DNA from: a virus
Virus record (IMG/VR): IMGVR_UViG_3300045253_000092
Span: 1 to 44,599 of that record
Reading direction: 5' to 3' (one strand)
DNA length: 44,599 nucleotides
Shown: positions 10,009 through 41,990 of the stretch, one piece after another
How the letters are laid out: each line of letters begins with the position of its first letter
Numbering within the stretch: the first letter of the stretch is position 1
Position numbers and translations under genes: made by a program
The notes under the pieces: generated by a model
What the model saw: the letters and a program-made list of their open reading frames with translations, nothing else
Told to the model about the DNA's origin: nothing
The model's database searches: none

Positions 10009-10178
10009 TGGCGAAGAAGTGCAAAGACAAGCGGTGTTACGAGATGAAAATGGCCGCCGAATTATTTGCCTTCGGAGACGGTCTGCGCGCGTACCCATGC
10101 CCGGAATGCAAGGGGTGGCACCTCACTTCCCAGCGCGTTGAACAGTCGGCATGGGTGAAGCGTGCCGTCCGTCCCTAG
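10008..10178 (+). CDS. Small zinc-ribbon protein with CPECKGWHLT motif, 56 aa
   Basis: GTG overlaps the previous stop (TAGTG); ends 17 bases inside the terminase gene. Residues 1-20 start VAKKCKDKRCYEMKMAAELF; the core YPCPECKGWHLTSQR is a well-known phage mini-protein motif (CPxCxxWHLT). The two Cys pairs (C5/C10, C31/C34) probably bind one zinc. These proteins are common beside packaging genes; role unknown. Confidence 0.75.
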   Translation: MAKKCKDKRCYEMKMAAELFAFGDGLRAYPCPECKGWHLTSQRVEQSAWVKRAVRP

Positions 10179-11892
10179 CCACACCGAGGACTTCCGGCAA
10201 GAGCTGCTGGCCCTCGGGCGTAGCAGCCTCTACCTTTTCGCCAAGGTCATCCTCGGGATGGCCGACCTTACCGAGAGCCTGCACCTTGATCTGTGCTCGT
10301 TCTTAGAGGGAAGGAAGGGGCCGTGGCGCCGAGCCCTGGTCTGCGCGTTTCGCGGATCCTTGAAGTCCTCGCTCTGCACCATCGCTTATCCACTTTGGCG
10401 CGGGCTCTACATCCCCGGATACTCGACAAAGCTGATCGAGGGATCTGAAGACCTGGCGAGATCCAACCATTTTCGCAGTCACTACTACGACCGCTTCACC
10501 ACGGGCGACAAGGCGCAGTTCCTCTACTGGCTCTACTCGCATCGCATCCCCGACGACTTCCAGGGCTGGAGCGTCCATCAGATTCAGTTCAAGTCTCCCG
10601 TATCGGGGTCGCCATCGGTGTCTTACGCCGGCCTGGAGAGCAAACTAGAGGGTTACCACGGCGATCTGATCGTGCCAGACGATCTAGAGGGCGCTGATGC
10701 GCAGAACAGCGAAGCCCGCAACGATGCCGCCTGGAGGAAAGTGGCGCAGGCCACTCCACTGCTGCGCGACCCCCGCACGGGCCAGATTCTCGTCGTCGGC
10801 ACGCCGTGGGGTCCGTCGCCTCTCGTCTGGAAGATCCGCCGGTTCGACAAGGACGACGGCGGTAGCGGCACGCTGGACAACAAGAAGCGGGACACTTGGA
10901 AGGTCTGGTGGAAGCCCATCATTGGCGAGGACGGCAAGAGCGTCTGGCCGGAGCGCTTCCCCGACTCCGTGCTGCCCTCCCTCCAGATGGACCGGGCCAC
11001 CTGGCAGACGCAGTACCTCCTAGAAGAGCGGGCCGAGTCCACTACCGTCTTTGACATGGCGACCGTGGAGGCGGGCTTCTGGAAGTGGCGCGTGCCGGGC
11101 CAGCTCCTCGGCTATCCGGCCTACGAAGTGGACGAGGAGAACAACGACTTCAAGCGGGACAAAAAGGGCCGGCTCAAGCTCGCTATCAAGAAGGCCGATC
11201 CCCGCTACCTCCGCTACTACATCCACGGCGATCCCAAGCACAAGAGCGGGCAGAAGAAGCACGCGGTGGACGACCGGCCCGCCCGAGCGGCCATCGTCGT
11301 GGTAGGCGTTTCCGAGGACTCGCACGCCTTCGTCATGGAGGAGTGGTGCTCTCCTACTGCCGGCCTGGAGGAGTTCGCGGACAAGTTCTTTCACTTCTAC
11401 CGCCTCTACGCTCCCTATCGGGCCACGATGGAGCCCACCGGAGCGCAGAATTGGTTCTGGGCCTACGCCCGCGAGCTGGAGCGGGGGAAGTACCGGAACC
11501 TCCAGAGCCTCGGCCGCTGGGGCGCTCCGTCGCGCCGGTTGCCGAAGCTCACCTCGGTGCTGCTCGAATCCACCAAGAGCACGAAGAATAAGGAGGGCTG
11601 GATCATCGAGCAGCTCTCCTCGTGGTTCGACCTCGGCTTGCTCCACATCAGCGCCGACAAGCAGAACATTCGCAGCGAGTTAGCCGCGTTTCCCTCGCTC
11701 TCCACGCCGGTGGACTTGCTCGACGCCCTGTCCCACGGACCGCCGCTGTGGCAGCCGCCGGCCTCCACCGAGCTGACCATGACGCTCCAGCGCCGGCAGC
11801 AACTCGTCGCCATGCAGGCTGAGAAATACACCGGATACAGAAACCCCTGGGCGTCCGAGCCCGAGACGGGAGAATTCGACACCCCCAACTGA
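10162..11892 (+). CDS. terL: Terminase large subunit, 576 aa
   Basis: Motor and nuclease that packages DNA. ATPase part: Walker-A-like AFRGSLKSS (residues 62-70, a deviant P-loop as in many podovirus terminases), Walker B LIVPDDLE (170-177), coupling motif VVGTPWGP (212-219). RNase-H-type nuclease part: an Asp in YYIHGDPKHK (354-362), then a strand-rich core (RAAIVVVGVSEDSHAFVMEE) and TMEPTGAQNW (423-432). GTG start, overlapping the zinc-ribbon gene by 17 bases. Normal size. Followed by a promoter, so the head genes can be expressed separately. Confidence 0.95.
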   Translation: MPSVPSHTEDFRQELLALGRSSLYLFAKVILGMADLTESLHLDLCSFLEGRKGPWRRALVCAFRGSLKSSLCTIAYPLWRGLYIPGYSTKLIEGSEDLARSNHFRSHYYDRFTTGDKAQFLYWLYSHRIPDDFQGWSVHQIQFKSPVSGSPSVSYAGLESKLEGYHGDLIVPDDLEGADAQNSEARNDAAWRKVAQATPLLRDPRTGQILVVGTPWGPSPLVWKIRRFDKDDGGSGTLDNKKRDTWKVWWKPIIGEDGKSVWPERFPDSVLPSLQMDRATWQTQYLLEERAESTTVFDMATVEAGFWKWRVPGQLLGYPAYEVDEENNDFKRDKKGRLKLAIKKADPRYLRYYIHGDPKHKSGQKKHAVDDRPARAAIVVVGVSEDSHAFVMEEWCSPTAGLEEFADKFFHFYRLYAPYRATMEPTGAQNWFWAYARELERGKYRNLQSLGRWGAPSRRLPKLTSVLLESTKSTKNKEGWIIEQLSSWFDLGLLHISADKQNIRSELAAFPSLSTPVDLLDALSHGPPLWQPPASTELTMTLQRRQQLVAMQAEKYTGYRNPWASEPETGEFDTPN

Positions 11893-12047: not shown

Positions 12048-14132
12048 TTGTCCGCTATCTTCGGTCCCTCCAGTATCCCCACCCAAGAGCCCGTAGAAGA
12101 CGATCCTTCCTCAGTAGATCCGGGGGCGCTCGTCGGCAATCCCGATGGCTCCCTGGATCTGTCCGAGGAAGCGCTGGAGGATCTCACCCGCCAGCTCATG
12201 GATACCCTGCGTGCCCACGACGCGGCCATGAAGAGCCGCTGGGACCGCGAGGAGGAGATCGAGCGGGCCTACGCGATGATCCCGGATAGTAACCGGGGCG
12301 GCCTGGTGCCCGACGCGGCGCGGATGGTGTCCTCGATCACGCAGGCGTTCGTGGATCAGGCTTCGGCGCGTATCTCACGCGGCATCATGGAAGTGAAGCC
12401 GCTGATGAAGGTGGATCCCATCGTCTCGGCCGGGCAGGAAGGCCAGATAGCCGTAGACCTCGCCAAGAGCGCGGAGCAGTTCTACCAGTCCTACGTCATG
12501 GACGACCTGGACTTTGAGACGCTGCTGCCCATCGCCGTCAAGCGCTGCGTGAAGCTTGGCACCGCCGTAGTCCGGGCCATGTGGAAGACGAAGCGGCGGG
12601 CGTTCTGGACCGGCGGCACGCGTAAGGTCAAGGAAGTGGGCTACTTGGACGTGCAGATGCCGGAGAACCACAACGTGGTCTGCTGGCCGCTCAATGTCAT
12701 AGACGCCCAGGATGCGGTCATGTTCGGGCACCGCAACCATCTGACCGAGGGCGAGTTCCTGACCATCGCCGCCGGTCTCAACGTCCCCGCCGATCAGGTG
12801 GAGCAGATTCTCGCCGAGCACACGCCCGACGAGCGGGCGAAGAATCTGCTCAAGAATCAGGATATCAAGGTGTCTCGGGACGACGTTGCGGCGCACATCA
12901 CGCTCACCGAGCTGTGGTGTGACTACGCCCTCGGCGACGAGACGGAGCCCACGAAGTTCTGCGTGGTGCTCCACGAAGACACCGAACAGATTCTTTGGGT
13001 GGGCTACAACCGCCTCCGCTCGCAGAAGCATCCCTACTTCCCCATCCACTACCAGCGGGTAGACGGGAGCTTCTGGAGCAAGGGCGTCGGCCATGAGCTG
13101 CTGTACGTCCACGCCGCGGACTCCGCTTTCCGGAATCTGGAGATGGACAACCTGCGGGCCACGGCCGCGTGGGTCATGCTCTTCAAGGCCGGCAGCATGG
13201 CCGAGTCCCTGTCGGATCGCGTCTCGCCGGGCCAGCGGATCATCACCGAGAGCCCCGACGAGGACTTCGCCACCAAGCAGCTCGGCGGCGATCTGACGAT
13301 GCTCCAGGAGGCCAAGCAGGCCAACTACCAAGACGGCGTGCAGGTCACGGGGCTAGCCTCGGTGCTGATGGGCATGGGCGACCCGGCCATGAAGTCCGGC
13401 GCCTCGGCTACCGCCGTCGTCTCCCTCATCGAACAGGCCGGCAAGAAGTTCGGCGACGTGGACGCCACCGTGCGGGACGGACTGGAGGAGCTGTACATCC
13501 ACATCATGGAGACGGTGGCTCAGTTCGCTCCGGACGGCCTGTACTACACCTTCCTTGAGACAGCGGACGCTGCGCGCGTGCGCCTGCTCCGTTTCCTGCC
13601 GCCACAGGGCGATATCGCGCGAGTCTTCAAGATTCACGCGCAGGCCCCCTCGGCGGCGATGAACAAGGAGAGCTTCAAGGAGCGTCTGCTCGCCCTCTAC
13701 CAGCTCACCACGGCCCACATCAACCTCTACATGCCTCTCGCCATGCAGACGCTCCAGCAGAGCAATCCGGCTGAGATTCCGCGGCTCCAGTTCCAAGTCT
13801 GCCAGTTGCTCCAGAGCCTCTACGATCAGGTGATCGAGGCGCATGAGGTGCCCGGCGTCATCAACAACGCTCCCGACGTGGGCCAACAGGAGCCGTGGGA
13901 CCAGATTCTCAACCAGGCGCAGCAGCAAGTGCAGATGCTCCAGGGCCAGATGCAGCAGATGCAGCAGCAGCTCCAGCAGGCCCAGGCGCAGGGCACCGCT
14001 GCCAATCCCACCGTCATTCAGCCGGCCAATCCGCAGGGTAACGCGCCGCAGCAGGGTCCGACCGCTCCGCCGCCGCCGCAGGGCCAGCCGTGGCCTCCGC
14101 AGGTGCCGCAGCAGCAGGGGATGATGCAGTGA
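12048..14132 (+). CDS. Portal protein, about 694 aa (may start upstream at 11979)
   Basis: Forms the twelve-fold ring through which DNA enters and leaves. Large podovirus-type portal: N-terminal acidic stretch, EEEIERAYAMIPDSNRGGLVP, a long mixed core with WSKGVGHELLYVHAADSAFRNLEMDN, and a C-terminal Gln/Pro-rich tail (residues about 620-694, QMQQMQQQLQQAQAQG). The TTG at 12048 is the first usual start codon. However, the frame is open and looks protein-coding back to 11979 (reading LAKPTPEQLQTAADLAQ), where a CTG lies ten bases after GGAG and 20 bases after the predicted transcript start. Family call rests on size, position after the terminase and overall pattern. Confidence 0.85.
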   Translation: MSAIFGPSSIPTQEPVEDDPSSVDPGALVGNPDGSLDLSEEALEDLTRQLMDTLRAHDAAMKSRWDREEEIERAYAMIPDSNRGGLVPDAARMVSSITQAFVDQASARISRGIMEVKPLMKVDPIVSAGQEGQIAVDLAKSAEQFYQSYVMDDLDFETLLPIAVKRCVKLGTAVVRAMWKTKRRAFWTGGTRKVKEVGYLDVQMPENHNVVCWPLNVIDAQDAVMFGHRNHLTEGEFLTIAAGLNVPADQVEQILAEHTPDERAKNLLKNQDIKVSRDDVAAHITLTELWCDYALGDETEPTKFCVVLHEDTEQILWVGYNRLRSQKHPYFPIHYQRVDGSFWSKGVGHELLYVHAADSAFRNLEMDNLRATAAWVMLFKAGSMAESLSDRVSPGQRIITESPDEDFATKQLGGDLTMLQEAKQANYQDGVQVTGLASVLMGMGDPAMKSGASATAVVSLIEQAGKKFGDVDATVRDGLEELYIHIMETVAQFAPDGLYYTFLETADAARVRLLRFLPPQGDIARVFKIHAQAPSAAMNKESFKERLLALYQLTTAHINLYMPLAMQTLQQSNPAEIPRLQFQVCQLLQSLYDQVIEAHEVPGVINNAPDVGQQEPWDQILNQAQQQVQMLQGQMQQMQQQLQQAQAQGTAANPTVIQPANPQGNAPQQGPTAPPPPQGQPWPPQVPQQQGMMQ

Positions 14133-16509: not shown

Positions 16510-17427
16510 ATGCCATCTTTCGCCAACGTCCATCAGCTCTCCGAGTGGACCGACTACATCCAGATCGGTCTCCGCCAGGTGTACGAAGACACCATCCCGC
16601 AGATCCCGAAACAGTACGAGTCCTGGCTGCGCGAGGTGAAAGCCAAGGACTGGACCGAGAACAAGATCGTCAACACCGGCCTCGGCGCCATGCCCACCAA
16701 GACCGTGGGCGGCGACTTCTCGACCGACAAGAAGATCACCGCGACGAAGAACGCTTACTCGCTGACCGCCTACGGCCTGGGCGTCCTCATCGAGTACGAG
16801 TTGGTCGCGTGGGACAAGTACGACATTTTCACCGACATGACCAAGGAGCTGGCGAAGGCGACGGTGGATCGCCTCAACATCATCGCCTACTCGATCCCGA
16901 ACAACGCCTTCGGCACCACCACGGGCTACACCATCTACAACGGCGAGGCGATCTTCAAGAACAGCCACACCCGTCTCGACGGTGGAACGTGGAAGAACCG
17001 TCCGGACACCGACGTGTCGCTCTCCTACCTCGCTCTGCAACAGGCGCGGATCGACCTCGCCATCCTCCAGAACGAGCGCGGCCGGTACACTCCGGTGCGC
17101 CCGAAGACGCTGCTGTGCTCCGAGGCCAACCGCTGGATCGCCGACACCATCGTGAAGACGGACAAGCGGCCCGGCACCGCGGACCACGACATCAACACCG
17201 TAGCGAGCTGGGGCATGAGCGTGGAGTCCTCGCCCTTCCTGACCACGGACGAGAACTTCTTCGTTTTCGGTCCCAAGGACAACGTGCAGATCGAGCTGCG
17301 CATGGGCCATGAGCCGCAGTACCGGCAGGACTACGACGTGCGCAACTGGAATCAGATCATCTCGTGCTACATGAGCGTCGGCATCGCCGTCCTGCACAGC
17401 CAGGGAGCTTGGGGGTCAGCCCCCTGA
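16510..17427 (+). CDS. Major capsid protein, 305 aa
   Basis: Expected shell protein of the head. Position after the scaffold, a GTAGGAG-type ribosome site, high GC at third positions and size fit. Sequence features compatible with the HK97-like gpT/Mu-type major head subunits: an N-terminal helix region, the segment SLTAYGLGVLIEYELVAWD with DRLNIIAYSIPNN (long spine-helix region, residues about 95-130), YNGEAIFKNSHTRL, and a C-terminal beta part with KTLLCSEANRWIADTIV and FVFGPKDNVQIELRMG. No separate protease gene is seen. Confidence 0.85.
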   Translation: MPSFANVHQLSEWTDYIQIGLRQVYEDTIPQIPKQYESWLREVKAKDWTENKIVNTGLGAMPTKTVGGDFSTDKKITATKNAYSLTAYGLGVLIEYELVAWDKYDIFTDMTKELAKATVDRLNIIAYSIPNNAFGTTTGYTIYNGEAIFKNSHTRLDGGTWKNRPDTDVSLSYLALQQARIDLAILQNERGRYTPVRPKTLLCSEANRWIADTIVKTDKRPGTADHDINTVASWGMSVESSPFLTTDENFFVFGPKDNVQIELRMGHEPQYRQDYDVRNWNQIISCYMSVGIAVLHSQGAWGSAP

Positions 17428-21184: not shown

Positions 21185-21871
21185 GTGCAACTGAGCTGGC
21201 AGCAGATCCGCGATTACTATCGGCTTGCCGCCGGCAACGCGACGGCGGCAATGGCCGAGGAGTACGTGCATTTGAGCGCTGCCTATCAGTGGGCGTGCGA
21301 CCAGCTAGACCTCAACGAACTGCTGGCGAAAACCACGGTGGGCTGTCAGATCGGCGTGGACTACGTAACGACGCCGCCGGACGCCTTCAGCGTCTACTCC
21401 GTCACCGACGTGACGCAGCAGTACCGGCTCGACCCTGAGCCGGCCGGGATGCGTGGGCGCACGCGCTACCTGCTGAATAACGGGATGCCGGCTCCCGGCC
21501 TGCCGCGCTACTACGCGCTCCAGGGCAAGCGGATCTACCTGCGCGACACGCCCAACGCCGCGGATATCCTGACGGTCTACTACAAGAAGCAGCCCTCGGC
21601 GATCACGTCGTCGGACTTGTCCACCTCGCCGGATCTGCTGCCGCAGCAGTATCACTGGCCGCTCGTCTGGTACGCGGCGGCTAACTACTACATGCTGCAC
21701 CCCGACGAGGACACGTCCGGAGATGGCGAGGGAGCGGGCCGCGCGGACGCGCTGATGAACAAGGCCATGACCGCCATCGCCACGCCGCCGACGCAGGATC
21801 AGAAGAACGATCCCGACCGGCGGGAGTACGTGCGAATCCAGGGCTACAGCTTCAACGTGGGCGGCCGATGA
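21185..21871 (+). CDS. Second head-tail adaptor-like protein, 228 aa
   Basis: GTG one base after the previous stop. Same plan as the protein at 20137: helical start (WQQIRDYYRLAAGNATAAMA, YQWACDQLDLNELLA), VDYVTTPPDAFSVYSVTDVT, a PRYYALQGKRIYLRDTP strand pair, LTVYYKKQPSAITSSD, then PLVWYAAANYYMLHPDEDTS. Typical adaptor/connector fold in podoviruses. Four-base overlap with the next gene. Confidence 0.65.
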   Translation: MQLSWQQIRDYYRLAAGNATAAMAEEYVHLSAAYQWACDQLDLNELLAKTTVGCQIGVDYVTTPPDAFSVYSVTDVTQQYRLDPEPAGMRGRTRYLLNNGMPAPGLPRYYALQGKRIYLRDTPNAADILTVYYKKQPSAITSSDLSTSPDLLPQQYHWPLVWYAAANYYMLHPDEDTSGDGEGAGRADALMNKAMTAIATPPTQDQKNDPDRREYVRIQGYSFNVGGR

Positions 21872-23979
21872 GCGAGAAGTTCATCGACATTCTGCCGGGC
21901 ACTGGCTGGAGCGAGACGGCACCGTGGCGGTCGCTAGATCCCACGGACAACACCCGCGTTCGCCTGGGCCGCATCATGGCCGGCGTCGGCGGCGGCGAGG
22001 CCATCCCGGCGTTCCGGCATGCCGTCAACGTCGCCTTCGACTACGGCCGATGCCGCATGCGACCGACCATCGCGGACGAGGCGGGTCCTACCGTGGTGCT
22101 TCCTAACGCCGGTAACGACCAGGCCACGATGTGGATCCATCGCGGTGTAGTCGCCATCGAAAACGCCACGACGCGCGGACTTCCGGTAGACACGCCGGTG
22201 ACGATTCTCGTCACCAGCCGCGAAGTGTGGCTCAACATGGGGTCGTGGGTGAATCTCACGCCCACCTACACCACGGGCACCGTAACGGTCACGAATGGCA
22301 GCGCCACCGTGGCGGGAGCGGCCACCGCGTGGTCGGCGCGCTTCATCGCCAAGGGCGATCTGTTCTCGGTGGACGGCACGACGTGGTATCGAGTTACCGA
22401 CGTGGTAACGGGAGTCTCGCTGACCCTGCACACCACTTACGCCGGCTCCACGGCAGCGGGCAGCACGTACATCATCCGGCGGTGTTTCGGCGGCAACTCC
22501 ACGCCGGGGAATTGGGCCAACAACCTCACCGCATGCCTGTTCAACGGCGACCTCTACATTGCCGGAAATACCGTGATCGGTCTGCCGGGCCGAGTGACTG
22601 CCGGTCCCAATAACGAGGTGGGCGGCCCCGGCGTGCTGAAGATCGGCAACATCTTCAACAGCGGCAATCAGACCACCACCTACCTGATGGCTCGCCATCC
22701 GGTGGTGGCCGGGATCGCCACCTTCGACGGGAATGCCCAGGACCGCCTCTTGGACATTCTCGGGATGGAGCTGATGCAGGACGGCCGCGTGCTGCTGGCG
22801 ACGCATGAGCAGCCGACCGCGGTGTACCTCGCCGGGCAGACGCAGACCATCGGCAATCGGCTGCGCTACTCCTCGCATCTCGACACCACGGTGTGGACGA
22901 CTCCTCCTGGCGGCTTCGTGGATCTCGTCGGCATCTCCGACCGCTACGTGTCCGGTCTGAAGGGGATCCGCGGCAGCTTCGCGGTTCACTTCCCCGACGC
23001 CATCGCGCTGGCACACCCGAGCGGACAGGACGATCCGCCGGTACGCATTGAGAGCAGCGCCAGCCGTACCGGGACGATAGACAATCACTCCATCGCCACC
23101 GACAGTTCGGGCGGCCAGTTCTTCGTGGACGAGCACGGCGGCGTGTTCAACTTCAACGGCTCAACCTCGCAGAAGGTGACAGAGGGGCTGGATTACGAGA
23201 CTGGCGGCTTTCAGGAGTTCAGCGGAGGGCCTCCACCGGGATCTGTAGGCGGCAAGGGGCTGTCTTGTGGCGCATACGACCCGTTCTCCGGGGCGTACTG
23301 GCTGGCGCTGACCTATACGGGGTCAGTGCAGGGCATCTTGCGCTACGACACCGCCGTGTATCAGGTCTTCCCTGACGGTCGCGTGGCGAAATGGATCTTC
23401 GGCAACGTAATCTTTGCGTTGGGTCGCAGCCCGGTGATTCCAGCGCGAATGGTGGCCGGTCTTGGCACTGGCGCCGGGAATGCGGCTACCGCGCTGTATG
23501 CCTCTGTGGATCCGTTTGGCACGACGGACAGCACGACTCCACCGACGTGGACAGTGGGTGGTCCAACAACCATCATCTTCGGGTCTGGCGTGGTGGCTCC
23601 CTATGTCACCACCGACTACCTGTCTCCTGCTGGGCCGGGAAATGACTGGACGCTCTCCCGGCTCACCGCGTGGCTGGCTCGTACCAAGGACGATGCCCCG
23701 GCGCCCATCGTCTCGCAGACGGTGACTGCCCAGGTACGGACGGTCGGCAGTACGAGCGCGACCAACTATGGCGTTGGTACTCGCACGGTCAGCGTTCCAG
23801 CGGCGTCAGATACCGGAGATTTCATGGTGGAGTTCACCGACGTAATCACTGGAGAGGCGCTGGCGGCGCAGTTGACGGTGGGGTCGCTGTCCGGCTCCAA
23901 CATCGCTAGCGCCCTGGAGCTGACGCGCCTGCGGCTATGGTACACGGAGCAGGGTCCGAGCATGGCGGTGGCGCGATGA
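21868..23979 (+). CDS. Large tail nozzle/tube-like protein, 703 aa
   Basis: ATG overlaps the adaptor stop. Long beta protein with many short strands, as in the nozzle (gp12/gp10-like) proteins of podoviruses. Residues about 135-205 form a phage module seen in many tail proteins (TGTVTVTNGSATVAGAATAW, then AKGDLFSVDGTTWYRVTDV, TLHTTYAGSTAAGSTYIIRR). Later segments (LLDILGMELMQDGRVLLATH, SSGGQFFVDEHGGVFNFNGS) suggest propeller blades. Expected to extend the tail below the adaptors. Confidence 0.75.
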   Translation: MSEKFIDILPGTGWSETAPWRSLDPTDNTRVRLGRIMAGVGGGEAIPAFRHAVNVAFDYGRCRMRPTIADEAGPTVVLPNAGNDQATMWIHRGVVAIENATTRGLPVDTPVTILVTSREVWLNMGSWVNLTPTYTTGTVTVTNGSATVAGAATAWSARFIAKGDLFSVDGTTWYRVTDVVTGVSLTLHTTYAGSTAAGSTYIIRRCFGGNSTPGNWANNLTACLFNGDLYIAGNTVIGLPGRVTAGPNNEVGGPGVLKIGNIFNSGNQTTTYLMARHPVVAGIATFDGNAQDRLLDILGMELMQDGRVLLATHEQPTAVYLAGQTQTIGNRLRYSSHLDTTVWTTPPGGFVDLVGISDRYVSGLKGIRGSFAVHFPDAIALAHPSGQDDPPVRIESSASRTGTIDNHSIATDSSGGQFFVDEHGGVFNFNGSTSQKVTEGLDYETGGFQEFSGGPPPGSVGGKGLSCGAYDPFSGAYWLALTYTGSVQGILRYDTAVYQVFPDGRVAKWIFGNVIFALGRSPVIPARMVAGLGTGAGNAATALYASVDPFGTTDSTTPPTWTVGGPTTIIFGSGVVAPYVTTDYLSPAGPGNDWTLSRLTAWLARTKDDAPAPIVSQTVTAQVRTVGSTSATNYGVGTRTVSVPAASDTGDFMVEFTDVITGEALAAQLTVGSLSGSNIASALELTRLRLWYTEQGPSMAVAR

Positions 23980-29994: not shown

Positions 29995-31038
29995 ATGCCA
30001 ATGACACTGGCGACCGGCGAGGGTGGTGGCGCGCTGGGCCAGGGCGTTAGCCCGCCCGCTACTCCGGCCTACGACCCGAACCAGTACGGCGCGGTGAGCG
30101 GCAGTGCGTGGAACACGCAGCCGGGTCCGTGGATGACGCCAGGCAGCGGCAGCACTCCCGCCACAGGCGCCGACGCGGGCTCGGGCGCCGGCAGTGGCTA
30201 CGCCTCGCTGATGGGCAACATGGACACGCTCGCCAAGCAGCCGATCCAGGGCGTCAATGGCACTCCCTACGGCAATCCGCCGAACAACATTCCGGGGATG
30301 CCTGGCTTCACGCAGATCAACGACTACTACAAGAGCCTGATCCCGGTCTACCAAGATCAGTCCAACCAAGCTCTGCGCGGCGCCATGTCCACTGCTGGCT
30401 TCGGCGGGACTCGCTACGGCTCGGCGGCGGCCAACTCGGCTGCCGACGTGGGCGCTCGCTACAACAATCAGATGCAGTCTCAGATCAACCAGATGAGCCA
30501 GGGCCAGATCAACTCCGATCTGGACCGGGCGATGCAGCAGTACATCTCGGACAATCAGCTCCAGGCCGCCGACCAGCAGGGCGCCGCAGCGCAGCAGTCG
30601 GCCTACTACAACTACATCCTCGGCCAGCAAGGGCTGGAGCAGAAGGCCAACGAAGACGCGCTCAACTACTCGCTGGGCTCGGGCCAGATGGGGCTGGACT
30701 ACTACAACGCGGACCAGTCGGCCAACCAGTTTGCGATGCAGTATCCCTATCAGGCCGCGCTGTGGCAGAACCAGATCTTCCAGGGTCAAGTGGACCCGGC
30801 GATGCAGTTCGGCCAGTACGAGCAGGGGCGGCAGGACCAGTTCAGCAACCTCGCGTATCAGGACTGGAATCAGAACAAGTACGGCATGCTGCCGATGCTG
30901 GGCGGCTGGGCGGCTGGGATCAATGCCGGCAGTCCCGGCAGCGTGATCCCATATCAGTCGAGTCCGGGTACGCCGAGCCAGGCCAATACGTTGGGCTCGC
31001 TGCTCGGCGGGCTCGCTGGACTCTTCGGCGGCGGGTAA
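29995..31038 (+). CDS. Internal virion (ejection) protein, 347 aa
   Basis: ATG with GAGGTGAG upstream. Disordered start (residues 1-85), then a long Gln/Asn-rich helical region: YYKSLIPVYQDQSNQALRGA, GGTRYGSAAANSAADVGARY, LDRAMQQYISDNQLQAADQQ, and a hydrophobic Gly-rich tail (LGSLLGGLAGLFGGG) that may insert in membranes. This GGTRYGS plus helical Gln-rich pattern is known from phage proteins of the ejection set. Exact function inferred. Confidence 0.65.
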   Translation: MPMTLATGEGGGALGQGVSPPATPAYDPNQYGAVSGSAWNTQPGPWMTPGSGSTPATGADAGSGAGSGYASLMGNMDTLAKQPIQGVNGTPYGNPPNNIPGMPGFTQINDYYKSLIPVYQDQSNQALRGAMSTAGFGGTRYGSAAANSAADVGARYNNQMQSQINQMSQGQINSDLDRAMQQYISDNQLQAADQQGAAAQQSAYYNYILGQQGLEQKANEDALNYSLGSGQMGLDYYNADQSANQFAMQYPYQAALWQNQIFQGQVDPAMQFGQYEQGRQDQFSNLAYQDWNQNKYGMLPMLGGWAAGINAGSPGSVIPYQSSPGTPSQANTLGSLLGGLAGLFGGG

Positions 31039-31041
31039 GAC

Positions 31042-32406
31042 ATGGCCGGCTACAAGGTCATCGCTACCGGCTTCAGCGATCCGGGCTTCTACCAGGATCA
31101 GCAGCAGCGGCTCGCCATGATGCTGTCGGGCCTGTCGCAGCAGGCGGAGCAGCGCAAGCAAGCCGAGGACGAGCAAGAGCAGCAGGAGATGAAGCAGGTG
31201 CTCTCGCTGATCCAAGACACGAGCTTGCCGCCCGACGCGCGGGCCTCGATGGCGAACGACCTGTCAGTGCGCTACGGCGAGAAATATCCGTGGATCAAGG
31301 ATCTGGCGAGCAGCCTCGGCGGCCAAGCTGGCGCGCGGCAGGCCATCGCGCAGCAGTGGCAGGACGCCGGTACGAGCTTCCAGAAGCGGCTGTCGGACCT
31401 GACAACGACGCAGCAGCAGCAGTCCGAGGTGTTGCAGGCCGCGCCAGACGAGGTGCCGCACGACGGCGGCGCGGCCGTGGGAACGATCCCCAACGTGGCG
31501 AAGATCGCCGGCCAGCAGCTTCTCCAGCAGCAGACTTCGCCCTTCTGGCGGGCCTACGGCGAGCTGACGCCTCCCGCGCAGGCGATGGTGGCGGCGTACT
31601 ACAAGCAGCAGGGGCTCGGGGATCAGGTGCCGTTCCCGGACTACAGCCGGATGAACCCGCAGATCGCTCAGGTGGCCGCCATGTACGGCACCAGCAGCCC
31701 GCAGTATCAGGCGGCTATCCAGTCCAGCACCGGGTTGTCCATGAGCGCCGCCGAGAAGCAGAAGCTCGATCTGGAAGACCAGCAGACGACGCAGCAGGCG
31801 CTCGCCGCCCACGGCATGCGGCAGCAGGAGCACGGGCAAATCGCCTCAGACGCTCGCGCGCTGCAAGCTCAGCGGGCGGCCGACTCCACAAAGCTGGCAC
31901 AGCTCCACGCCAATCTTCAGCTCAGCACCGGCCAGCAGCTCATTCAGGACCGCGCGGCGGCCCGGCCTGCGGGCACGACCGGCGCGGCGACAGATATCAA
32001 TTCGTTCTACAAGGGCATCGAGCCGCAGGTCAAGTCGTTCACCACGCCGCAGCAGGGGCCAGACGGCACGGTGGCGCCGCCGATGAGTCGCCGGGACGCT
32101 GTAGCTAGGGTGGTGGGCCAGAACGTCCCCGAGTTGCAACAGGCGTTCACCGACGCGGCCGACAAGATTTCCACCATGCCCCTGCCCGATGCCATCAAGA
32201 TTGCGCGGGTCAAGAAGCTGCACGACACCATCGCGTCCTCTCTCTTGCGCCGCGTCGATCCTTGGTCGCTGGCCGCGCACGTTCGCCAGTCAGCCGGACT
32301 GCCGATAGCGCAGCAGCCCACGGGTCCGCAGGTGCCTCCCGCTCCCGACGTGTCACAGCCGATGATGCAGGACCAGGGCGGCGAGGAAGAGGATGGGCAG
32401 CAGTAG
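31042..32406 (+). CDS. Internal virion (ejection) protein, 454 aa
   Basis: ATG four bases after the previous stop; overlaps the giant protein gene by 14 bases. Almost all helical and Gln-rich: LAMMLSGLSQQAEQRKQAED, QQWQDAGTSFQKRLSDLTTT, QAMVAAYYKQQGLGDQVPFP, LALxQR-type heptads around residues 255-310. No enzymatic motif is seen. By order and composition comparable to internal core proteins of T7-like and P22-like phages. Confidence 0.65.
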   Translation: MAGYKVIATGFSDPGFYQDQQQRLAMMLSGLSQQAEQRKQAEDEQEQQEMKQVLSLIQDTSLPPDARASMANDLSVRYGEKYPWIKDLASSLGGQAGARQAIAQQWQDAGTSFQKRLSDLTTTQQQQSEVLQAAPDEVPHDGGAAVGTIPNVAKIAGQQLLQQQTSPFWRAYGELTPPAQAMVAAYYKQQGLGDQVPFPDYSRMNPQIAQVAAMYGTSSPQYQAAIQSSTGLSMSAAEKQKLDLEDQQTTQQALAAHGMRQQEHGQIASDARALQAQRAADSTKLAQLHANLQLSTGQQLIQDRAAARPAGTTGAATDINSFYKGIEPQVKSFTTPQQGPDGTVAPPMSRRDAVARVVGQNVPELQQAFTDAADKISTMPLPDAIKIARVKKLHDTIASSLLRRVDPWSLAAHVRQSAGLPIAQQPTGPQVPPAPDVSQPMMQDQGGEEEDGQQ

Positions 32407-35400
32407 CGCGCTACCAGACCTCTCCGATATCTTCGCGGACAACACCGACGCGGGGCCTTCCCCGGACACGTCGAATCTGCCCGACCTGTCCGGCCTGTTT
32501 GCCGACACCGCGGTAGGCACGACCAAGCCGAAGCCGATGCCCAACCTGTCCTCGGTGTTTACCGGGCCGCCAGAGCCCAAGGCGAAGAAGCGGCCGGTGC
32601 TGCCGTGGGAGGACCCCAACAATCCGCTGGTGCAGGCGGCCAAGAAGGGCGAGGCAATGCCCACGGCCGAGGCAGAGCAGCTCGGCCCGGACCCCGGCAC
32701 GGTCATGCCGGCTGCACGCCAGGCGGCTAACCTCGCGGCCGGCTGGGTCTACGGCATCCCGGAGCGGCTGGGCATGGCGCCCGAGGGCACCTACCAGCAG
32801 ATGCAGTCGGATCTCAACGACGAGCGGCAGCGGGCGCTGGAGCACGGCCACGAGGTGGCGCAGACGCTCGCCATCCCCGCTGGCCTCGCGCTGGGCATGG
32901 TCCCCTCGCTGACGGCAGCCAAGGTGGCGCAGGGCGGCCTAGCCGCCGCGGAGGTAGCCGCGCCGAGCCTCGCCAGGAAGCTGGCCGGGGTAGCGGCGGC
33001 AGGGGGCGAGGGAGCCCTCCAGGGCGGCCTACAAGCCACGGGGGAGAGCCCAGAGGACCAGGCCAAGATGGCGGCGCTCGGGGCCGTCCTGGGCTCTGCT
33101 GGGGCCTCTGGGCGGCTGATCCCCGAGGGCCGGTTCAACCCCTCGACGGCAGAGCCTTCTCCCACAGCGCCGGGGCCGGGGGGTTCTCCTCCCCCGCAAC
33201 CGGCCCCGGCACCCGCCGAGGTATCTGCCGCAGTAGACGTGCCAGCCGTCAAGTCCACGGCGGACATGACGCACGCCGAGCTACGGGCGGCTTTCTTGAC
33301 CAGCGAGAAGACCGGCCTGCCCAACCGCCGGGCCTTCGATGAGGTACAGACCGCGCAGCCCAAGCCGGTGGTGGTGCTCTCGGACGTGGACGGGCTCAAG
33401 TACATCAATGACAGCGCCGGCCACGACACGGGCGACCAGCTCTTGAAGCTCAAGGCAGACGCCTACAAGGCTGCGGGAGTGGACGCCTACCACGCAGGCG
33501 GCGACGAGTTCATCGCCCGCTTCGACAGTCCGGAGCAGGCTTCCGCGGCGATGGCGCAGGTGAAGCAACACCTCGGCAATGCCCAGCTTGACTACAGCAC
33601 GCCCGATGGACAGGTGCGACTCTCGGGAGTAGGATTCTCCTATGGCGCAGGCAGCGACCTCGCATCCGCAGACGCCGGCCTTAGAGCTGCAAAGGAAGCT
33701 CGACTCGTTGCGGGAGAACGTGCTCCGCGCGGAGAACCGCCTCCCAACCTTGGCCGAGTACCACAGCCTGATGCCGGCGGGGTCGAAGCTGGTATCCGTC
33801 CAGCCGTCAGCGAGGACGCCGCCACCGTCAGCCGGCCCATCCCGCCCGACCTCCGGGCCGCCGCTGCCGCCAGGGCCGCCGGAGCGCTCACCGTCGAGCC
33901 TCCCGCGCCGCCGGAACCGCCGTTAACCACCAGCCTCAAGAACGCGGTGGCCGGCGCCGAACGCGCCGACCGGGGACTGCCGCCGGTAGAGCACTCCCCG
34001 CTGCAACTGCGTGGCGATCAGGCCATTCTCGACGCCGGCAAGTCTGCGGTGGAGAACGGCTCGGTGGATCCCCGCGCGCTAGCGCAGTCCATCGTGGACA
34101 AGCCGCGGGGAGTGTCCGTGGAGGAAGGCGGCGCGCTGGCCTACGACCGGATGCGGCTAGCGAACGCCCGGCAGGAAGTGCAGCAGCAGGTATTCCAGGC
34201 GCAGGACGCCGGCCAGCCGGTCAGTCCGGAGCTGCGGCAGAAGCTCGCGTCCATCCAAGACGCCTACGACGTGAACGACCAGGCGATTCACCACGCCGGC
34301 ACGGCCTGGAGTGACATTGGCAACTTCCGCCAGCGGTTCATCAAACAGGACTACTCGCTCGCCCAAGTGATGAGCCGGGCGAAGGCGGCCACGCCCGATG
34401 GCGTGGTGCCCGAGCAGGCCGCTAGCCGCCTCGCGCAGACCGACCGCCTGCTCCAGACCGCTCAGACGGCCCTGGACGAGCACACGCAGGGGCTAGGCGA
34501 CCGGGAGCTGAATCGCTCGGTGGCGAGGATGCAGCGCTACGCCAAGCGGTCTTCCGCTCGCGCCGCGACGGCTGCCCAACTGGACGCCGAGTTTGAGGAG
34601 ATGCGCGGGCGCTTCCGCGCTGCTGCCGCTACGCCACGCGCCGGCCTGGACCCCGAGCTGGTGGGCCAGCTTGGCGAGATGGCTTTCAACCGAGTGCGCC
34701 GCGGGGTCAACACCGCAGCCGAGGTGGTGGATCACGTCTATCAGGCGGTCAAGGATCACATTGACGGCATCACGCCCCGTGACGTGCGTGACGCCATCTC
34801 GGGATACGGCAAGACCAGCCAGCCGAGCACTGATCCGGTGGCAGCCAAGGCGCGCGACCTGCGGGCGCAGATGCGCCTCATCTCCTCGCTAGAGGATGCG
34901 CAGGCGGGCCAGGAGCCGCTGCGGTCTGGCTTCCAGCACGCACCGGCTAGCCCGGAAGTCCAGGCCCTGCGCAAGCAAGTGATGGACGCCATGCGCGCCA
35001 ACGGCATCAGGGATCCGCAGGCGCAGTCGCTCCAGGCGTACAAGACCAAGATCCAGAACCAGATCGCCAAAATGGAGGGCGGCGACTTCTCCACGCCGCA
35101 ACGCCGTCCGCTCAAGCTCGACGCGGAGGCGCAGGCGTTGCGCACCAAGGCGCAGGCTCTCCGCGCCAAAGCTGCGCCACAGACCGGCGACTCGGCGCGC
35201 ATCCAGGCTCGCAAGGCGGCGATGCTACGCCAGGCCAAGCAACTGGAATCCAACATCGCGCGCATGGAGACTACGGGCAAGAAGCCCGCGCCGGTAGTGC
35301 GCAAGCCCATCCCGCTGGATCAGGAGGGGCTAGCCCTCCAGGCCAAGGTGGAGACGCTGCGGGCGCGGCAGGATGCAGTCATTCGCCAATTGGACCGCAA

Positions 35401-36787
35401 GAACCGTGGCGGCCTCAGCAAAGCGGGAGACTTCGCCGTTGGCCTGCGTCGCGCCGTGCTGCTCAGCAGCCCCCGCAGCCTCGGCAAGATCGCCAGCTCG
35501 GCTGTCTTCGGCAAGATGGCGGCGAGGCCCGCCGAGGAGCTCGCAGGGGCCTTCTGGAGCAAGCTGCCGGGCATCCGGGAGATCGCCGCCAAGGCGCCCA
35601 CGGAGGGCTCTGCGGGCCTGCGGGCCACCCTGCGCGGGGAAGGCTCGGCGCTAGGCCAGATCGCGGATCCGGAAACCTACCGGGACATTGGCCGCACTCT
35701 CAAGACCGGAGCCGGCGTGCTGGACAGCAAGCGCATGGATCCCGGCACCGGAGAGAAGTTCGATCCGCAGTCGGTGGCTTCGTTCTTCGGCCGGGCGCAC
35801 GGCGCGATGAAGGTGCTGCCGCAGCGGGCCGAGTTCATGCGGGCGCGATCCCGGCTGATCGACTACTACGGTGCCCACCCCGAGCTGAAGGTGGATCCGT
35901 CCACCGCCGAGGGCTCCGCGCGCATCATCGAGGAAGCCAAGGCGAAGTCCCTGGAGGCGAAGTTCCAACAGCCCAACGTGCTGCATACCGCCTTCCACAC
36001 GGGCATTGCCCAACTCAAGAAGGCTGGCGGCGGGTACGAGGCAGCGGCTCACGCGCTTGAGTTCCTCATGCCCATGACTCACATCGCCAGCAACATCGCG
36101 ACGGAGGGCACGGACTACGCCGCCGGGCCAGCGAAGGCCATGCTCCAGATCCTCCGCAGTCGCGGCGTGGACAAGATGACGCCCGAGCAGGCCGACTACG
36201 TGATGCGCAACATCAAGAAGGGCACGGTAGGCTGGGCGCTCGGGGGAGCGGTCATGGGCCATCTCATCAAAGCCGGCGGCTTCTATCAGGAGGGCGACCG
36301 CCGCAAGCCCGGCGATCTACCGGCCGATACCGTCTCCATCGGCGGAGTGCAGCTCCCCCGCTGGCTCACCGGGCATCTGCCCATCGCCTCGGCCATTCAA
36401 GTGGCCCAGGAGCTTCGCAAGAATCCCAACGCGCAGGGCGTGCTGAGGGCAGCGAATGGCATCGCCCAGGAGCTTCCCTACTACGAGATGTACAACGCGG
36501 CCAAGAAGGGCGTTGCCGGCGAGGGCTACGGCGCGCCCAATCAGGTGCGGCGGGACTATTGGGGGGACATTGGCCGCTCCACCATCCTCCCGCCAGACCT
36601 CCCGCGCGTGGCTCGTGTGCAGGATCAGAAGACCGGCAAGCCAGCCACCACGGCGCAGCTCGTCGGACTTGCCGACGCTGACCCGGCCCGCCACCGCTAC
36701 GCGCAGACCATCGCGCAAGAGTTCAAGCTGGGCATCCCCGGCTACCGCAAACAGGTGCCGGCAACGAAGCCGAGGGCCACACCGTGA
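32393..36787 (+). CDS. Giant putative ejection protein with internal GGDEF domain, 1464 aa
   Basis: ATG with GAGGAAGAGG upstream. N-terminus: three copies of a short motif (LPDLSDIF 7-14, LPDLSGLF 29-36, MPNLSSVF 49-56). Residues about 100-250 are amphipathic and Ala/Gly-rich, apt for membrane passage. Residues about 295-430 are a GGDEF domain: TGLPNRRAF (307-315), SDVDGLKYINDSAGHDTGD (330-348, with metal Asp331 and substrate Asp340), AGGDEF (368-373) and a closing ADAGLRAAKEAR helix. All core catalytic residues are present; the inhibitory RxxD before GGDEF is absent (AGVD). The remaining 1030 residues are helical with linkers, as in large phage internal proteins. If active it would make cyclic di-GMP in the host after injection. 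Catalysis and packaging in the virion are inferred. Confidence 0.8.
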   Translation: MGSSSALPDLSDIFADNTDAGPSPDTSNLPDLSGLFADTAVGTTKPKPMPNLSSVFTGPPEPKAKKRPVLPWEDPNNPLVQAAKKGEAMPTAEAEQLGPDPGTVMPAARQAANLAAGWVYGIPERLGMAPEGTYQQMQSDLNDERQRALEHGHEVAQTLAIPAGLALGMVPSLTAAKVAQGGLAAAEVAAPSLARKLAGVAAAGGEGALQGGLQATGESPEDQAKMAALGAVLGSAGASGRLIPEGRFNPSTAEPSPTAPGPGGSPPPQPAPAPAEVSAAVDVPAVKSTADMTHAELRAAFLTSEKTGLPNRRAFDEVQTAQPKPVVVLSDVDGLKYINDSAGHDTGDQLLKLKADAYKAAGVDAYHAGGDEFIARFDSPEQASAAMAQVKQHLGNAQLDYSTPDGQVRLSGVGFSYGAGSDLASADAGLRAAKEARLVAGERAPRGEPPPNLGRVPQPDAGGVEAGIRPAVSEDAATVSRPIPPDLRAAAAARAAGALTVEPPAPPEPPLTTSLKNAVAGAERADRGLPPVEHSPLQLRGDQAILDAGKSAVENGSVDPRALAQSIVDKPRGVSVEEGGALAYDRMRLANARQEVQQQVFQAQDAGQPVSPELRQKLASIQDAYDVNDQAIHHAGTAWSDIGNFRQRFIKQDYSLAQVMSRAKAATPDGVVPEQAASRLAQTDRLLQTAQTALDEHTQGLGDRELNRSVARMQRYAKRSSARAATAAQLDAEFEEMRGRFRAAAATPRAGLDPELVGQLGEMAFNRVRRGVNTAAEVVDHVYQAVKDHIDGITPRDVRDAISGYGKTSQPSTDPVAAKARDLRAQMRLISSLEDAQAGQEPLRSGFQHAPASPEVQALRKQVMDAMRANGIRDPQAQSLQAYKTKIQNQIAKMEGGDFSTPQRRPLKLDAEAQALRTKAQALRAKAAPQTGDSARIQARKAAMLRQAKQLESNIARMETTGKKPAPVVRKPIPLDQEGLALQAKVETLRARQDAVIRQLDRKNRGGLSKAGDFAVGLRRAVLLSSPRSLGKIASSAVFGKMAARPAEELAGAFWSKLPGIREIAAKAPTEGSAGLRATLRGEGSALGQIADPETYRDIGRTLKTGAGVLDSKRMDPGTGEKFDPQSVASFFGRAHGAMKVLPQRAEFMRARSRLIDYYGAHPELKVDPSTAEGSARIIEEAKAKSLEAKFQQPNVLHTAFHTGIAQLKKAGGGYEAAAHALEFLMPMTHIASNIATEGTDYAAGPAKAMLQILRSRGVDKMTPEQADYVMRNIKKGTVGWALGGAVMGHLIKAGGFYQEGDRRKPGDLPADTVSIGGVQLPRWLTGHLPIASAIQVAQELRKNPNAQGVLRAANGIAQELPYYEMYNAAKKGVAGEGYGAPNQVRRDYWGDIGRSTILPPDLPRVARVQDQKTGKPATTAQLVGLADADPARHRYAQTIAQEFKLGIPGYRKQVPATKPRATP
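33642..33926 (+). CDS. Possible overprinted ORF inside the GGDEF segment, 94 aa
   Basis: In the +1 frame of the giant gene, ATG 33642 has AGGA seven bases upstream. Residues 1-55 look protein-like (ALELQRKLDSLRENVLRAEN, LPTLAEYHSLMPAGSKLVSV). Over about 33640-33800 the main frame loses its usual GC preference at third positions (about half instead of most), as expected if a second frame is also constrained. After that the ORF becomes Pro/Ser/Arg-rich, like a shadow. It might be a real small protein or the scar of two compensating frameshifts. Confidence 0.35.
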   Translation: MAQAATSHPQTPALELQRKLDSLRENVLRAENRLPTLAEYHSLMPAGSKLVSVQPSARTPPPSAGPSRPTSGPPLPPGPPERSPSSLPRRRNRR

Positions 36788-37964: not shown

Positions 37965-38187
37965 CCCCGAAGCCCTCTCGGCCCTCGTCAACCTCGGCAT
38001 CAAGCTCGCGACCGACGAGGTGACGCGCTACCACGAAGCCCAGGCCGAGACGCTGACCGACGAGCAGATCGTGGAAGCGTGTGCAGCTATCACCGCCGAC
38101 ATGGAGAGTAGCGTCGCCATCGTCAAGGAAGGCGAGGATAGCGTGCGCTCGGGAGCGTCTGGCCTGCCGGAGAAGGGCGCCGACTGA
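37945..38187 (+). CDS. Small acidic protein, 80 aa
   Basis: ATG with GGGAGG seven bases upstream, overlapping the lipoprotein end by 20 bases. Helical and acidic (SPEALSALVNLGIKLATDEV, TDEQIVEACAAITADMESSV). No membrane segment. Its stop overlaps the endolysin start. No family recognised. Confidence 0.6.
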   Translation: MAAISLSPEALSALVNLGIKLATDEVTRYHEAQAETLTDEQIVEACAAITADMESSVAIVKEGEDSVRSGASGLPEKGAD

Positions 38188-38606
38188 TGATTGCCACGCC
38201 GAAGTGGCTAGACATAGCCTTTGGCGAGGTCGGCGTCTCGGAGGTGCCCGGCCCCGGCGCCAATCCACGCATCGTGGAGTACGACGCCTGCACCACGCTC
38301 AAGTCCACCAGCGACGAGGTGCCGTGGTGCTCGGCCTTCCTCTGCTGGGTCATGGAGCAGGCGGGCGAACCCAGCACGCGCTCGGCGATGGCCCGGTCAT
38401 GGACCAACTACGGCATCCCGGCCGTCCCGGTGGTCGGCTGCGTCACCGTCCTGCGGAGGGGCAGTAACCCCGCGCAGGGACACGTCGGACTGCTCCTAGA
38501 CCGCCACGACGGCTGGGTGTACCTGCTCAGCGGCAATACCGGCAACCGGGTAGAGGTGGCCCGCTTCCCCGAGAGTGACGTACTGAGCTACCGGCTGCCG
38601 GAATGA
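38187..38606 (+). CDS. Endolysin, CHAP-like cysteine peptidase/amidase (TIGR02594 type), 139 aa
   Basis: Cuts host peptidoglycan at lysis. The family pattern is complete: PKWLDIAFGEVGVSEVPG at the start, NPRIVEYDA, then the nucleophile motif EVPWCSAFLCWV with Cys48, TRSAMARSWTNYG, GHVGLLLDRHDG with His99, and LLSGNTGNRVEV with Asn117. Length is typical of this minimal endolysin. No signal peptide, so it needs the holin. ATG shares a base with the previous stop. Confidence 0.9.
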   Translation: MIATPKWLDIAFGEVGVSEVPGPGANPRIVEYDACTTLKSTSDEVPWCSAFLCWVMEQAGEPSTRSAMARSWTNYGIPAVPVVGCVTVLRRGSNPAQGHVGLLLDRHDGWVYLLSGNTGNRVEVARFPESDVLSYRLPE

Positions 38607-40815: not shown

Positions 40816-40940
40816 TGGACACCTTCGCTCGCGGGCAGCGCGCTCATGCCGAGCACAAAAACGTTGATCGCTGCGTTGCGGTCACGGCCTTCGCTCTCCT
40901 CCCTCGCACCGGCGGCAACTCGCGGGCGGCCGGCGGGTCA
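40812..40940 (-). pseudogene. Short frame with TnpB-like zinc-knuckle remnant
   Basis: ATG at 40940 overlaps the upstream stop and opens a 19-codon frame (MTRRPPASCRRCEGGERRP). In an adjacent frame the following bases read EGRDRNAAINVFVLG and end with TGA just at the next start. Together (CRRC, then RDRNAAINV) this resembles the C-terminal CxxCG...DRDxNAAxNI block of TnpB-type proteins, but it would need a frameshift. It may be a decayed piece of such a gene or chance. Confidence 0.3.
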
Positions 40941-41990
40941 TGGCGTGTCCTTAACAAACGTGAGTGACCCTTCGAGTGCCCACGTCTGCGTGTAGTTGCA
41001 CCGGCAGCACTTCCACCCGCTCGTCGTGGCAATCAGGTCGCCGCAGCCGTTGGCGCAGGTGTACGGGTGGACGTTCTCGGCTACCTGATAACGGTTGAGA
41101 GCCACCACCTGCTCCTCGGTCCACGGCGCAGTGATGTGGCTGCCCGACGTGTCTCCTGCGTCGAGGGCGTCGAGGTACTCTCGTGCGGCAATCAGCTCAT
41201 CGGTATACGTCGGTCCGCGGTACGGCCCTGCATGACTCTGCGCGATTGACCACACCAGCCAATAGCGCGGATCGTCATGCGTTCTGTCGAGGCTCTCGAC
41301 GAGGTTACGCAGTAGCCGTTGAGCCACGGCCTCGCTGCTCATCGCGTCGTCACGCTGAAGGTTGAGGTCATCCATCTCCCGCTCGGCCTTCTCCAGCGCG
41401 GCGCGGGCGGCGGCGAGGTCTTTCTCGGCGAACAGCACTCGCACGTTGGCGCGCTCCGCTGCCTCGTCGGTCGGCATCACTGACAGGTCGATGTACGCAC
41501 CGCCGCCGATCTGGATCGACCACGCGAGCCTGCCGGCTGGCTTCACGTCGGGCTGATCGTGGGTGATGCTGAACTCGCCCTCCAGCACGGCACGCACAGC
41601 CTCGGCCAGCTCGTGCGCGGGCTTCGCGTCACCACGCCACGGTGCAGCGATCAGGTCGAGGTCGCGCGTCTCGCTGCCGTGAACGCCGACCGCGTAACCC
41701 ATCGCCCGCGCCACCTCGCGCACCTTGACGAGCGCCTCGGGGTACTTCTTTTGCCCGCGCATGAGGTTGCGTGTCGCGGTGACCTCGCTAGTCAATCGCA
41801 GGTTCTCCTCGCACGCCTCGCGGTGCAGGGCCTCCAGGGCGGCCCAGGCGGCGTCTGCGGCGCGCTCAGCGGCGAGCAATGGGAGATCGACATCCATCGC
41901 CATATCAACTAGGGCATCGACTGCCTCGCGCGCTTCCTTCAGCGCGTTCGCCAGCTGTTGCTCCATCGAGGTGGTCATCTCTCGCTCCAT
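40938..41990 (-). CDS. Three-part phage protein with nucleotidyltransferase-like motif and zinc ribbon, 350 aa
   Basis: ATG 41990. Residues 1-80 and 185-235 are coiled-coil. Residues about 88-175 form a domain seen in many phages: ARAMGYAVGVHGSETRDLDL, APWRG, and WSIQIGGGAYIDLSVMP. The HGSxxRDLDL piece with a later Asp resembles a reduced nucleotidyltransferase active site (Gly-Ser, Asp110, Asp112, Asp168). Residues about 310-340 hold a zinc ribbon (TCANGCGD, KCCRCNYTQTW). Activity unproven. Stop overlaps the next frame. Confidence 0.65.
   Translation of the reverse strand: MEREMTTSMEQQLANALKEAREAVDALVDMAMDVDLPLLAAERAADAAWAALEALHREACEENLRLTSEVTATRNLMRGQKKYPEALVKVREVARAMGYAVGVHGSETRDLDLIAAPWRGDAKPAHELAEAVRAVLEGEFSITHDQPDVKPAGRLAWSIQIGGGAYIDLSVMPTDEAAERANVRVLFAEKDLAAARAALEKAEREMDDLNLQRDDAMSSEAVAQRLLRNLVESLDRTHDDPRYWLVWSIAQSHAGPYRGPTYTDELIAAREYLDALDAGDTSGSHITAPWTEEQVVALNRYQVAENVHPYTCANGCGDLIATTSGWKCCRCNYTQTWALEGSLTFVKDTP

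Follow-up and report, generated by a model that had tools for sequence, protein, structure and literature searches.

An intact open reading frame of 1464 codons (32393-36787, + strand) in the viral sequence analysed here, the window (44,599 nucleotides, positions 1 to 44,599 of IMG/VR record IMGVR_UViG_3300045253_000092), appears to encode the large, polyvalent-type and gp16-like ejection protein of a podovirus, which carries a delivered, feedback-free diguanylate cyclase module, a reading to which a probability of roughly 0.6 is given. The presence of a real, and not a chance, GGDEF domain in this protein is confirmed by profile searches and structural modelling. If the reading is correct, a second-messenger enzyme would arrive with the genome and act before any phage gene expression, and viral entry would directly target cyclic di-GMP (c-di-GMP).

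The GGDEF domain, together with a family-specific tail, occupies residues 281-450 (33233-33742, + strand). The first-pass annotation had noted GGDEF motifs inside an ejection-type protein, and these were found where it had placed them, with TGLPNRR beginning at residue 307 (33311), DVDGLKYIN at residue 331 (33383), GHDTGD at residue 343 (33419) and GGDEF at residue 369 (33497). It had located the domain correctly, but its end at about residue 430 was set too early; the tail at residues 441-450 belongs to the domain, which therefore ends at about residue 450. A Pfam search, one of the checks that it had proposed, gave a match of the GGDEF profile PF00990 to residues 306-434 (E 4.2e-10, 40.1 bits against a curated cut-off of 23.8 bits), and PHROG 5594 matched residues 285-450 (E 7e-18); the NCBIfam domain model TIGR00254 scored 36.0, slightly under its cut-off of 37.4. 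The structure prediction and comparison with PleD that it had also proposed favoured a GGDEF fold. An AlphaFold model of residues 281-455, built from a 54-sequence viral alignment, has a pLDDT of 96 and a pTM of 0.89, and 140 of its residues superpose on PleD (1w25, Z 15.6) with a deviation of 2.5 A. The best PDB fold matches are diguanylate cyclases (Z 15-17.5), headed by SiaD (Z 17.5) and DgcR (Z 17.3), and the closest relatives of solved structure are likewise GGDEF proteins, mostly diguanylate cyclases. The top match among viral models is a giant protein with 40% identity, followed by the GGDEF protein of Bordetella phage CN1. SiaD, DgcR and PleD have the fold and catalytic residues of the window domain in common with it, but differ in sequence, with an identity of about 25-29% across the aligned part, and in possessing sensor or receiver domains and, in most, an inhibitory I-site.

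Conservation of the active site was assessed across 59 non-redundant members of a viral GGDEF family. The earlier claim that all catalytic residues are present is borne out, since the metal, base and phosphate residues D331, N339, D348, D371, E372 and K434 are all found in the window domain and vary little or not at all among the family members. The first metal ligand D331 (PleD D327; 33383-33385), the guanine-binding N339 (PleD N335; 33407-33409) and the phosphate-binding K434 (PleD K442; 33692-33694) are each kept in 59 of 59 members, as are D371 and E372 within the GGDEF loop (residues 369-373, 33497-33511), the first Gly of which is Ser in 39 of 59 relatives. The guanine-binding D348 (PleD D344; 33434-33436) is Asp in 56 members and Asn in three. 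G347 and R443 complete the invariant set, and K336 differs once. R443 (58 of 58) lies in the tail GERAPRGEPP (residues 441-450, 33713-33742), in which R446 and G447 are nearly invariant; the tail motif GxR(A/G/S)xRG, which follows the final helix, is a specific feature of the viral family, does not occur in the bacterial controls and forms a high-confidence part of the AlphaFold model. Catalysis is probably under selection in the family, because it is exactly the catalytic set that is strictly kept among domains with 29-49% whole-domain identity to that of the window; this conservation is the strongest argument that the enzyme works. A Hypr-type (cGAMP) specificity was considered and is disfavoured, D348 being kept.

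The first-pass annotation had proposed that the RxxD feedback-inhibition site is replaced by AGVD (residues 361-364, 33473-33484). The loss of the I-site stands, but AGVD is just one possible register, the loop being one residue shorter than that of PleD and RxxD occurring in neither register. RxxD was found in one of 65 viral domains and in eight of nine bacterial controls, these nine being domains from one bacterial genome (a tenth row labelled as bacterial is a faecal phage scaffold).

Many bacterial GGDEF domains are degenerate sensors, and an intact GGDEF catalytic sequence can persist for GTP binding only. It is conceivable, though unlikely, that the delivered domain is a sensor that binds GTP or c-di-GMP, or an oligomerisation element, and not a working cyclase. 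The Ser in place of the first Gly in most relatives would fit such a role, as would the position of the conserved Arg after the catalytic Lys, which stands at K+3 as opposed to K+4 in PleD. However, degenerate sensors usually lose the GGDEF or metal residues, while D331, D371, E372 and K434 are fixed in 59 divergent domains, and the I-site, which is the usual sensor site, is precisely what has been lost.

The family was assembled from IMG/VR in two steps, in which a first alignment of solo proteins with the window domain detected 31 loci and a second alignment of fused domains detected 80, about 60 of them strong. The domain lies inside a giant open reading frame in most of them. Among the 59 non-redundant members, 48 are in large proteins, the window included, and 11 stand alone. 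In a phylogenetic tree the window domain groups with fused viral domains, apart from bacterial ones, but the deep split is weak (SH-aLRT 75) and a single origin of the viral family is therefore not claimed. Scanning bacterial genomes with a single GGDEF sequence yielded one weak match, and none of the plasmid records searched at E 1e-10 carries the fused-type domain. When 50,697 phage records were searched with a fused-type domain, every match listed was of the solo Yuavirus/Vojvodinavirus type, and the search thus identified no isolate with a fused domain. These solo proteins of about 155 amino acids (YuA gp44, CN1, MP1412) are the nearest GGDEF domains among sequenced phage isolates. They belong to the viral family, with 35-39% identity to the window domain, no I-site and the GxRxxRG tail, but differ in being separate proteins encoded outside the structural module and in missing about 19 residues before the last strand; their genes adjoin an antirestriction gene.

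The assignment of the 1464-residue protein to the ejection apparatus is based on gene order, protein size and related contigs. The window encodes a terminase large subunit (10162-11892, + strand; phrog_38 E 7e-40) and a portal protein, or head-tail connector (12048-14132, +; phrog_1216 E 1e-10, phrog_332 E 3e-6), both of podoviral type, followed by a probable major head protein (16510-17427, +; phrog_133 E 8e-10, phrog_4523 E 1e-8) and a tail fibre protein (21868-23979, +; phrog_2712 E 1e-13). No convincing match to a tape-measure protein was obtained among the window proteins searched. Contiguous with one another among these late genes are a gene for an Ala/Gln-rich protein of 347 amino acids, gp14-like by position (29995-31038, +), one for a protein of 454 amino acids, gp15-like by position and size (31042-32406, +), and that for the 1464-residue protein. 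A CHAP-domain/TIGR02594 protein, a probable endolysin, is encoded downstream of the trio (38187-38606, +; PF05257 E 1e-6, TIGR02594 E 5e-32). Podoviral ejection operons encode gp14-like proteins of 181-240, gp15-like proteins of 431-982 and gp16-like proteins of 609-1337 amino acids, in that order (PMC8954989). The gp16-like assignment follows from the position of the third protein, a size near that of these gp16-like proteins and the recurrence of the trio in related contigs, although the first and third proteins are somewhat above the corresponding ranges. Like T7 and P22 gp16, the protein is encoded by the third and largest gene of its operon; in contrast, no sequence match to them was found, and T7 gp16 has a peptidoglycan hydrolase domain in place of GGDEF. 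Profile searches gave no direct family match for the 347- and 454-residue proteins, no family match of the trio to T7 gp14, gp15 and gp16, and no match of the 1464-residue protein to a known gp16 family.

In seven contigs (L009, L012, L014, L016, L018, L027 and L031) the GGDEF giant likewise comes at the end of a similar run from small through medium to giant, and in two of these, L014 and L009, the small protein matches PHROGs that bear the name DNA ejection. In L011, a tail protein (5e-96), an internal virion protein (phrog_418, 2e-23) and a phrog_992 head protein precede the GGDEF open reading frame, which is followed by a virion structural protein (phrog_684, 1e-233) and a tail spike or fibre. 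Several independent contigs share this arrangement with the window, and the L011 neighbours belong to internal-virion and virion-structural families; it is therefore highly likely that the 1464-residue protein is one of the ejection (internal virion) proteins, as had been supposed in the initial annotation. A single-sequence scan of IMG/VR with the window terminase found no relatives, and no clear counterpart of the window terminase or portal turned up in those GGDEF-bearing contigs that were searched, which therefore do not appear to come from close kin, although empty answers of this kind are not conclusive.

GGDEF is the only recognised enzymatic domain of the 1464-residue protein, the remainder being an uncharacterised carrier. 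The C-terminal carrier region (residues ~471-1456, 33803-36760, + strand) is common to giant phage proteins that have no GGDEF domain, with blastp matches to L219 (E 1e-102), L218 (E 2e-61) and L221 (E 4e-16); GGDEF is absent from these and from two further carrier relatives, L220 and L223. In L218 (3462-10952) a ddrB-ParB domain is joined to the carrier region where the window protein has GGDEF, and L031 is the sole contig found with both GGDEF and the next ~300 residues of the window protein. Single-sequence scans of IMG/VR with the whole protein and with its C-terminal region found no relatives, alignments being needed, and structure prediction of the C-terminal region was unusable (pLDDT 38). 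A second carrier provides a comparable case. The GGDEF open reading frame of L011 (4825-6738) is homologous at both termini to a Uetakevirus (epsilon15-like) protein of about 600 residues (SPN1S_0018; ZX5 QTH80060), which lies between a 'head protein' and a 'virion structural protein' and has a coiled-coil-like stretch where L011 has GGDEF (comparison with L215, L216 and L217). Homologues in ZX5, SPN1S and Pseudomonas phage HB2107-3I have both ends in common with L011 and lack GGDEF. As relatives of the last ~950 residues of the window protein and homologues of the L011 protein both occur without it, GGDEF is, judged from these comparisons, a removable module on ejection-type carriers, and as the carrier exists without it the domain would not be essential to ejection.

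Short repeats are found at the N-terminus of the window protein (PDLSDIFAD, LPDLSGLFAD and PNLSSVF; residues 8-57, 32414-32563, + strand). Two or three short acidic/aromatic repeats are common at the start of giant ejection-type proteins, each with its own motif in L056, L061, L062, L092, L102 and L105 (DPWAGF three times in L105). One design with differing motifs possibly represents a packaging or docking signal.

Alternatively, the enzyme could be active in the cell that produces it, at a late stage of infection, as with the solo Yuavirus proteins, and not be ejected into a new host. This is quite unlikely, but consistent with the genes of the solo Yuavirus and Vojvodinavirus members, which adjoin an antirestriction gene and are not part of the structural module, and with the solo viral GGDEF of Bordetella phage LK3, which has been linked to biofilm, LK3 lysogens forming more of it (PMC8471281). 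In the window and its fused relatives, however, the domain is encoded within the third gene of an ejection trio, and it occurs within giant proteins alongside domains known from injected polyvalent proteins. Ejection of the cyclase with the genome is the preferred reading. A podoviral gp16-like protein would have gained an accessory GGDEF module of the viral family ahead of a carrier of ~950 residues. The 1464-residue protein would be packaged in the head and exit before or with the DNA, placing the GGDEF domain in the host cytoplasm. The C-terminal part of T7 gp16 is thought to reach the host cytoplasm as a multimer (PMC8954989), and similar behaviour here would concentrate several GGDEF copies at the entry site, which would suit a domain needing two partners. 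Two or more neighbouring copies could then meet and convert GTP to c-di-GMP. With no I-site there would be no shut-off by product and synthesis would persist at physiological c-di-GMP, so that even a small number of copies could cause a local rise in c-di-GMP in the first minutes after entry. For phage entry it can be the local c-di-GMP, and not the global level, that counts: infection of E. coli by phage N4 needs the cyclase DgcJ, apparently acting locally (PMC8669472). The likeliest purpose would be to reprogramme the host surface or envelope early, by way of c-di-GMP receptors, as in superinfection control, or to interfere with nucleotide-based defences. The initial annotation had proposed a shift of the host to a sessile state, altered phage receptors or an effect on nucleotide-signalling defences as possible outcomes, and these remain conjectural.

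GGDEF polyvalent proteins are of a kind put forward before, by Iyer et al. in 2017 (PMC5512222), whose relevant passages say that GGDEF occurs, though not very widely, in polyvalent proteins predicted to be injected, and suggest interference with nucleotide-based defence as a possible role. The proteins described there are likewise giant and predicted to be injected, with GGDEF amid unrelated domains, as in an Acetonema longum prophage (WP_004096050.1), whereas in the window protein, which is encoded in an ejection trio of podoviral type, GGDEF is the single enzymatic domain recognised. The passages concerned contain no analysis of catalytic residues, I-site or family. What is new here is the viral GGDEF family, characterised by an active site that does not vary, the lack of an I-site and the tail motif, together with natural pairs in which one carrier has the domain and the other does not. 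No experimental test of the activity or delivery of such viral GGDEF proteins was found in the literature searched, and the family alignment, the invariant site and the natural carrier pairs make the 2017 prediction concretely testable.

Panoptes defence works with decoy nucleotides (PMC12657218), and it is a speculative and improbable extension of the preferred reading that ejected proteins bear an interchangeable, feedback-free cyclic-dinucleotide synthase warhead, which would pre-empt nucleotide immunity or silence decoy-restrained Panoptes from the first minutes. Similarly improbable is an active site tuned to another cyclic dinucleotide or a linear product against CBASS, Panoptes or type III CRISPR immunity, for which the SGDEF loop of most members, the extra invariant Arg443, the other host-conflict-attributed domains of sister proteins and the use of decoys by Panoptes might speak, but both guanine-specific residues are kept (N339 in 59 of 59 and D348 in 56 of 59), making GTP the likely substrate, and no link to a defence system was found, PADLOC giving no match.

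The other domains of the sister GGDEF giants are ART-PolyVal, LPD5, LPD38, InPase, RadC and a strawberry-notch/SNF2-type helicase, on sequence evidence a set of the kind that marks polyvalent proteins. InPase is present in 14 giant GGDEF open reading frames and lies within ~150 residues of GGDEF, on either side, in L062, L065, L068, L069, L071, L072, L074, L078, L086, L087, L093 and L114. A GGDEF-InPase pairing for removal of pyrophosphate, the by-product of the cyclase, was considered and rejected as not specific, only three of 80 InPase loci carrying GGDEF. Elsewhere in the window, an ERF-type single-strand annealing protein (561-1472, - strand) and an adjacent DUF3799 PDDEXK-like nuclease (1444-2859, -) are likely to constitute a phage recombination pair, and residues ~83-176 of a 350-residue protein (40938-41990, -) match PHROGs 35913 and 31354, both of unknown function. 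In L012, two adjoining open reading frames resembling GNAT acetyltransferases (1927-2866) lie directly upstream of the ejection trio.
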